Assembly (NCBI GenBank): GCA_947485165.1
Contig: CANKRG010000023.1
Span: 1-32,988, forward strand
From: Comamonadaceae bacterium
Lineage (GTDB): Bacteria > Pseudomonadota > Gammaproteobacteria > Burkholderiales > Burkholderiaceae_C
Direction of reading: 5' to 3'
Length of the DNA stretch: 32,988 bases
In this document: positions 27,901-29,856 of the stretch, piece after piece
How positions within the stretch are numbered: position 1 is the stretch's first letter
Layout of the letters: the number at the start of each line of letters is the position of its first letter
Translations under genes and position numbers: made by a program
The notes under the pieces: model-generated
Databases searched by the model: none
The model's input: the letters and a program-made list of their open reading frames with translations, nothing else
What the model was told of the DNA's origin: nothing

Positions 27901-28023
27901 TTGATGCAAGCGTGCATTGCAGCGCAAGGTTTGCCTGATGTGGTCGCCAATGCAAGCATCCGTGTTGAGCCGATGCTGCCATTCTGGAAGATCTAGACCA
28001 GCACAAGTGGGCTGTAAAACGAC

Positions 28024-28094: not shown

Positions 28095-28508
28095 TTAGTA
28101 GCTGCTGCGACCACCGCCGCCGTAGCCGCCACCGCCGTCGCGACCACCGCCGCCGCCGTAACCACCACCGCCGCTACGGCCACCGCCGCCGCCGCCGTAT
28201 CCACCGCCGCCGCCAGCGCCACCACCGTAGCCACCGCCACCGGTGCGAGGAGGACGTGCCTCCATTGGACGTGCTTCGTTCACAACGCAGCTACGGCCAC
28301 CCAAAGATTGACCGTTCATACCGGCAATAGCTGCTTGTGCTTCGGCATCGCTGCCCATTTCCACAAAGCCAAAACCTTTTGAACGACCGGTGTCGCGTTC
28401 CATCATCACTTTAGCGCTGGTAACAGCACCAAATTGACCGAAAGATTGCTCTAAATCGCTATCGCGGACCGAGTACGGCAAGTTGCCGACGTACAGTTTG
28501 TTGCCCAT
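28095..28508 (-). CDS. RRM-domain RNA-binding protein with Gly-rich tail
   Basis: KLYVGNLPYSVRDSDLEQSFGQFG (RNP2), RSKGFGFVEM (RNP1), GGGGYGGG-rich C-terminus. Confidence 0.95.
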   Translation of the reverse strand: MGNKLYVGNLPYSVRDSDLEQSFGQFGAVTSAKVMMERDTGRSKGFGFVEMGSDAEAQAAIAGMNGQSLGGRSCVVNEARPMEARPPRTGGGGYGGGAGGGGGYGGGGGGRSGGGGYGGGGGRDGGGGYGGGGRSSY

Positions 28509-28649
28509 TGAGGGACTCCTAAAAAACTCTTAATAACAAAGCGACGGGGATCCGACAAGCACAACAAACCAACTTGACTAAACTATGGCACCGCTGTGGC
28601 GTGAAACTAACCTATCACCAAACCTGCGCATCACTTAAGACACGCTGTT

Positions 28650-28679
28650 ATATTATGCGCCAATAAATTTAAATTGCAA
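28650..28679 (-). promoter_or_regulatory. Candidate sigma-70 promoter for the RRM gene
   Basis: On minus strand TTGCAA-N18-TAATAT (complement of 28674-28679 and 28650-28655), implying a ~135-nt 5'UTR. Confidence 0.4.
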
Positions 28680-28698
28680 CTGTGTTGTTTTTATGGGA

Positions 28699-29073
28699 TT
28701 AACAAGGTGTCGAAAGGGCGTCAGTTTTTGACGAACTAGCCTCGTCCGGTTCTGCGCCATAGTTGCGCCACAACTTCAAACTTTGACGCATGATCATCAG
28801 CTGTTGCTCAAAATTTGGGCAGGTTTTGCAAACATAAACGTGCAAGCGCAACTGAACATAGAGATTCGACATGAGCGCGTCCAATTCTTCACTGCCGTCG
28901 CCATCAAGCTCAAAATTGATACTCGACTCACGCGGTTGCACCCGCAGCACGTCGATGACTTTGTGCTTCAAAATGCCCACCAACCAGGTTTTGAGCTGCG
29001 ATTTGTTTTTAAATGCCAGCGGCTTGGTATTTGCCCTGTGTAGATCTGCTTCAAATCCGCTAATCGCCCCCAT
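28699..29073 (-). pseudogene. Apparent chimera of ECF sigma region-2 fragment and ZAS zinc-finger anti-sigma
   Basis: AFKNKSQLKTWLVGILKHKVIDVLR (sigma region 2-like), then RLHVYVCKTCPNFEQQL (HxxxCxxC); lacks N-terminal sigma region and most of region 4. The tracked start at 29112 overlaps the divergent gene; in-frame ATG at 29073. Confidence 0.6.
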
Positions 29074-29094
29074 TTCCCATGCCACAATTAGCGC

Positions 29095-29856
29095 ATGAAC
29101 AGCCTCAAACAACGACTCGGCAAACGACTGAGCCGCTATTTAAGCGAGCCAGGCCACACCGCTGGCACGGCAGAACCCACGCGTACCGATTTGCTGGCAC
29201 GGGTGCTGCAAACGGGGGACGTGCTGCTGGTGGAAGGCACGTCGCGGGTCAGCAGTGCTATCAAGTATTTGACGCAATCGACGTGGTCGCATGCGGCGCT
29301 GTATGTGGGTAAATCCGCTACTGGGGAAAGCCAGTTTTTAGAGGCGGACATGGTGCACGGTGTCCGCTTGGTCGCGCTGTCGCACTTCAACGGCTTTCAT
29401 TGCCGCATTTGCCGCCCTGCCAGTTTGAGCGTGGTGGAGCGAGAAGCCGTTTGCAACTTTGCCATTGCGCGTGTTGGCTTGCAATATGACATGAAAAACA
29501 TTGTCGATTTAGCCCGCTACCTGCTGCCCAACCCGCCCGTACCCATGCGCTGGCGCAGGCAAATGCTGTCGCTGGGCAGTGGCGACCCGACGCGGGCGAT
29601 TTGCTCGACACTGGTGGCCGAAGCGTTTGCGTCCGTCAATTACCCGATTTTGCCCACGGTAGAGACGCTGCCCGCCGTCGATTTGCTGGGCAATCCGCAC
29701 GCAGGCAGCTCGCGCGAGCTGCTGCACATCCGCCACCACAGCTTGTATGTGCCGCGTGATTTTGATGTGTCGCCCTACTTTCAAATCGTCAAACCGACCA
29801 TCGAAGTCGGCTTTGACCACCATTTTTTGACCTGGGCGCAGGCTTCATCAGAATAG
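29095..29856 (+). CDS. YiiX/NlpC-P60-like (permuted papain-fold) cysteine hydrolase
   Basis: LQTGDVLLVEGTSRVSSAIKYLTQSTWSHAALYVG; YDMKNIVDLARYLLP; RAICSTLVAEAFASV. Confidence 0.8.
   Translation: MNSLKQRLGKRLSRYLSEPGHTAGTAEPTRTDLLARVLQTGDVLLVEGTSRVSSAIKYLTQSTWSHAALYVGKSATGESQFLEADMVHGVRLVALSHFNGFHCRICRPASLSVVEREAVCNFAIARVGLQYDMKNIVDLARYLLPNPPVPMRWRRQMLSLGSGDPTRAICSTLVAEAFASVNYPILPTVETLPAVDLLGNPHAGSSRELLHIRHHSLYVPRDFDVSPYFQIVKPTIEVGFDHHFLTWAQASSE

Follow-up and report, generated by a model that had tools for sequence, protein, structure and literature searches.

A single open reading frame (ORF) on the minus strand of the window (the whole 32,988-nucleotide stretch of DNA analyzed here) joins pieces of an ECF sigma factor to a piece of a ZAS anti-sigma factor. 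We conclude that this ORF is very likely a recent deletion-fusion pseudogene, left by decay of a sigma gene, its neighboring anti-sigma gene, and a copper-peptide operon of the bufferin type, and that it is very probably not a new regulator. The pieces are homologous to and syntenic with intact genes of relatives, parts of them are missing, and the assembly holds no intact copies. The initial annotation offered decay or a small new regulator as the two possible outcomes; the missing parts, the lost operon, and a second relic nearby make decay much the better supported of the two, and the new regulator is unlikely. Ordinary gene decay is indicated because every close relative examined has intact, separate genes.

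Both halves of the fused ORF are recognizable

The frame exists as initially annotated, although the coordinates given then are those of the ATG form and the minus strand was not mentioned. The features of the locus are as follows.

27904..28005 (+): second relic, an SDR oxidoreductase gene of about 100 nt, frameshifted and truncated; intact in G001 and G003
28095..28508 (-): gene for an RRM RNA-binding protein; intact, on the left flank, and found at this position in the sister genomes too
28699..29073 (-): fused open frame, very likely a deletion-fusion pseudogene; ATG form, 124 aa, ATG at 29073, stop at 28699
28759..28848 (-): ZAS anti-sigma relic, RLHVYVCKTC...LWRNY; H-x3-C-x2-C kept, N-terminal Cys gone; about 177 bp missing before it
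28849..28869 (-): island (S)NLYVQL from sigma region 4.2; about 75 sigma codons missing before it
28870..29025 (-): ECF sigma relic, part of region 2 (2.3-2.4) and acidic linker, KP..FKNKSQLKTWLVGILKHKVIDVLR...EELDALM; corresponds to sister sigma codons ~42-95
29023..29043 (+): relic of the bufC 3' end, LGICPV* (sister LGVLPA*); about 2.34 kb missing between it and the sigma relic
29044..29094 (no strand): what was the bufC-yiiX intergenic spacer; read in antisense, it now supplies the N terminus of the fused frame and its ATG at 29073
29095..29856 (+): YaeF/YiiX-like permuted papain-like (C92) gene, intact right flank; directly after bufC in G001

An alternative TTG start at 29112 extends the ORF to 137 aa (28699-29112, minus strand), and the first ~28 residues of this form are antisense of yiiX, the spacer, and the bufC tail.

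Profile searches recognized both parts, each at scores below the family cut-offs. Residues 26 to 84 matched NCBIfam PRK12520 (46.6 bits, E = 3e-12, below cut-off) and TIGR02943 (42 bits, 8e-11; cut-off, 162.2), while residues 86 to 109 matched the antisigmaE model NF052368 (28.9 bits, 7.5e-7; cut-off, 50). Pfam detected only a weak Sigma70_r2 stretch in the ORF (12.4 bits, E = 0.14; cut-off, 24) and no region 4, so the pairing of regions 2 and 4 that defines an ECF sigma factor is lacking. With the profile scores below cut-off, it is homology with relatives that settles the identity of both halves. Residues 12 to 82 share 66 to 72% identity with the full-length sigma factors of three congeners, and residues 80 to 126 share 55 to 73% identity with their separate ZAS proteins, which bears out the original assignment of the N-terminal half to sigma region 2 and of the HxxxCxxC half to a ZAS anti-sigma. 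The string SNLYVQL was initially likened to the end of sigma region 4, and the relatives place it there as well: NLYVQL is identical in region 4.2 of all three.

Relatives retain an intact locus

We compared the window with three congeneric genomes (G001, G002, and G003). Each yields two separate matches to the fused protein: one is a sigma factor some 200 aa long, the other a ZAS protein encoded about 400 bp beyond it (70 to 81 aa; the longest frame in G002 gives 103 aa). Comparison with sister loci had been proposed as a check, and in all three congeners the sigma and ZAS genes are intact, separate, and adjacent to DUF2282-MNIO-DUF2063 genes; in G001, yiiX follows bufC. The G001 order, RRM / ZAS / sigma // BufA-BufB-BufC / YiiX, is also that of the window. 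The G001 sigma factor passes the TIGR02943 cut-off (216.7 bits; Pfam r2, 45.8, and r4_2, 50.4), as its ZAS protein does that of NF052368 (58.2 bits; cut-off, 50). Divergent to the sigma genes of the sisters lie three genes, whose products are a DUF2282 protein, an MNIO enzyme that comes near the BufB model (304.7 bits; cut-off, 310), and a DUF2063 protein. Pfam domains and gene order are the basis for the label "bufferin-type," because NCBIfam places the precursor below cut-off. G002 also carries a second DUF2282 gene (C38:908-1057), separate from the sigma-linked operon.

The best named relatives come from Polaromonas-labeled and other Comamonadaceae assemblies. The fused form itself was absent from the 300 other family genomes and from the 80 named loci searched, which rules out a known, widespread fused family. 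Five loci whose matches ran from residue 11 or 27 to residue 114 (L084, L089, L097, L108, and L113) were considered as fusions and rejected, as each has a full-length sigma gene and a separate ZAS gene. Fused or decayed sigma/anti-sigma genes were also sought in the literature, with nothing relevant among the titles listed.

Three deletions account for the fused frame

Judged from the alignments, the window carries at least three deletions relative to the G001 order, and all three junctions could be located, with the bufC tail LGICPV* and the NLYVQL island in register. Deletion 1, about 2.34 kb by the G001 layout, removed BufA and BufB entirely and BufC except for its last codons; from the sigma gene it took the promoter, the start, and the initial ~41 codons. 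On one side of its junction, the spacer upstream of yiiX aligns with the G001 bufC-yiiX spacer, and the plus strand just before it reads CTT GGT ATT TGC CCT GTG TAG (LGICPV*), which lines up with the G001 bufC terminus (LGVLPA*); on the other side are sigma codons ~41-42 (K-P). A short shared string around GCTTGG at this junction may mark the recombination site. Deletion 2, between EELDALM and NLYVQL, lacks 75 sigma codons relative to both G001 and G003. Deletion 3, between NLYVQL and RLHVY, lacks 177 bp by the G001 layout and 179 bp by that of G003, a stretch that covered the last part of the sigma gene and the beginning of the ZAS gene. The proposal that internal deletions had fused adjacent sigma and anti-sigma genes is thus upheld by G001 synteny and by codon-level alignment with three sister genomes.

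The ancestral locus would have encoded, on one strand, a TIGR02943-type ECF sigma factor followed by a small ZAS anti-sigma factor and, on the opposite strand, a bufferin-type operon (DUF2282 precursor, MNIO maturase, and DUF2063 partner) followed by yiiX. The ~2.34-kb deletion took away the operon together with the sigma start and the promoter region that the two sides shared, and two further deletions the span from region 2 to region 4 and the sigma/ZAS junction. The leftover pieces share one frame, probably by chance, and it is opened by an ATG in the former antisense spacer.

The larger event, loss of the bufferin-type operon together with the sigma N terminus, had been overlooked in the initial annotation. 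In the spacer upstream of yiiX (29044-29094), the window has about 10 extra bases relative to G001 (CCCATTTCCC or similar). The SDR relic lies about 0.7 kb from the fused frame; in G001 and G003, the SDR gene is intact between lptC and the RRM gene. The RRM leader (28500-28700, minus strand) is 93 to 95% identical to those of G003 and G001 and 77% identical to that of G002, in contrast to the saturated synonymous sites of the nearby sigma and ZAS pieces. An Rfam search of the window, the RRM leader included, matched no family; this conserved leader is possibly regulatory.

Misassembly is improbable

The source assembly comprises 108 contigs and is 86% complete, and junctions produced by misassembly or binning in so fragmented a genome would mimic deletions. 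We consider such an artefact very unlikely: the three junctions are separate, two of them inside two adjacent genes; the SDR relic is independent; the flanks stand in the expected order; and the retained pieces are diverged homologs rather than copies of any sister sequence. Searches of this 86% complete assembly found no match to BufB or to DUF2282, each of which is matched in all three congeners. The best sigma and ZAS matches in the assembly are the fused-frame relic itself, whereas the congeners all match ZAS.

Losses in the fused ORF favor decay over a new regulator

Invariant positions were defined as those at least 97% conserved in intact sigma factors from 79 named Comamonadaceae or related loci plus G001. 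Deletion has removed 46 of the 70 such positions in the sigma factor, so that the invariant set is incomplete, and the remaining 24 are all unchanged. The retained sigma part matches regions 2.3-2.4, with regions 2.1-2.2 and nearly all of region 4 absent. Among nine ZAS positions conserved at 97% or more, C9 and D21 are deleted. The zinc motif keeps H35, C39, and C42 and has lost the invariant C9, which, by analogy with known ZAS proteins, would be the fourth ligand. Across both parts, all 31 retained invariant residues are unchanged.

Between the window and its sisters, synonymous change has reached saturation, and against G003 the retained pieces give a dN of 0.05 and a dS of about 2. Saturation combined with so low a dN indicates that the pieces were mostly under purifying selection through their history; because of the same saturation, pairwise dN/dS says nothing on timing. 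If no selection has acted since the deletions, they must be recent: with the 31 invariant residues unchanged, zero hits in ~74 nonsynonymous sites place a rough bound of less than ~0.04 on neutral divergence since then, a small part of the branch. Both internal junctions are in frame, for which the chance odds are about 1 in 9. The unchanged invariant residues and in-frame junctions fit recent decay and would fit selection on the fused protein as well.

A small regulator, namely an expressed fusion protein whose sigma fragment or ZAS half acts as a decoy that binds core RNA polymerase or another sigma factor, could draw on the open frame that survives three junctions, the intact invariant residues, and the few amino acid changes against a saturated synonymous background. 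However, selection that acted before a recent deletion would account for the low dN just as well, and the fused form occurs in one genome only. The frame lacks the main core-binding part of the sigma factor (regions 2.1-2.2) and the first ZAS zinc ligand. Deletion 1 carried away its native start and promoter region, and a scan for consensus motifs upstream of the frame found no sigma-70-like promoter. AlphaFold, run on a single sequence, did not reach a confident fold (mean pLDDT, 41), a result that for this reason carries little weight. We therefore hold a decoy regulator to be extremely unlikely, and just as improbable is the variant in which expression from a new start in the antisense spacer was selected to titrate an RNA polymerase component or another sigma factor. 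What favors decay is the absence of core-binding and zinc-binding parts, the loss of the operon, and the dead SDR gene alongside; the deletions are probably recent, and what remains of the fusion is probably untranslated or nonfunctional.

Relation to known sigma-bufferin systems

In Comamonadaceae and relatives, TIGR02943-type ECF sigma factors with a small ZAS protein (NF052368) accompany bufferin-type operons, in an order and neighborhood shared with the window. Compared with that intact system, the window has one fused frame without two-thirds of the conserved sigma residues, the ZAS N terminus, or any complete gene of the operon. The Caulobacter SigF-NrsF system is similar in that an ECF sigma factor is encoded beside a DUF2282/DUF692/DUF2063/DoxX operon, and SigF controls the DUF2282-DUF692-DUF2063 operon (PMC3511200). 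The Caulobacter anti-sigma factor, however, is the membrane protein NrsF (DUF1109), whereas the relatives of the window have a small ZAS protein, and the window's own system is destroyed. A survey of bufferin clusters describes a DUF2282 precursor, an MNIO enzyme, and a DUF2063 partner, with sigma and NrsF genes in Buf1 clusters (PMC12452194). The sisters' operon has the same three components, while the window keeps only a few terminal bufC codons.

Were the frame expressed, it would be a new mini-regulator, although nothing in this analysis points there. As decay, the locus would be a clean example of a metal-stress-type operon lost together with the sigma/anti-sigma switch next to it, each junction being still readable. 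It also serves as a warning that deletion can leave a plausible "fusion regulator" liable to be annotated by gene callers.
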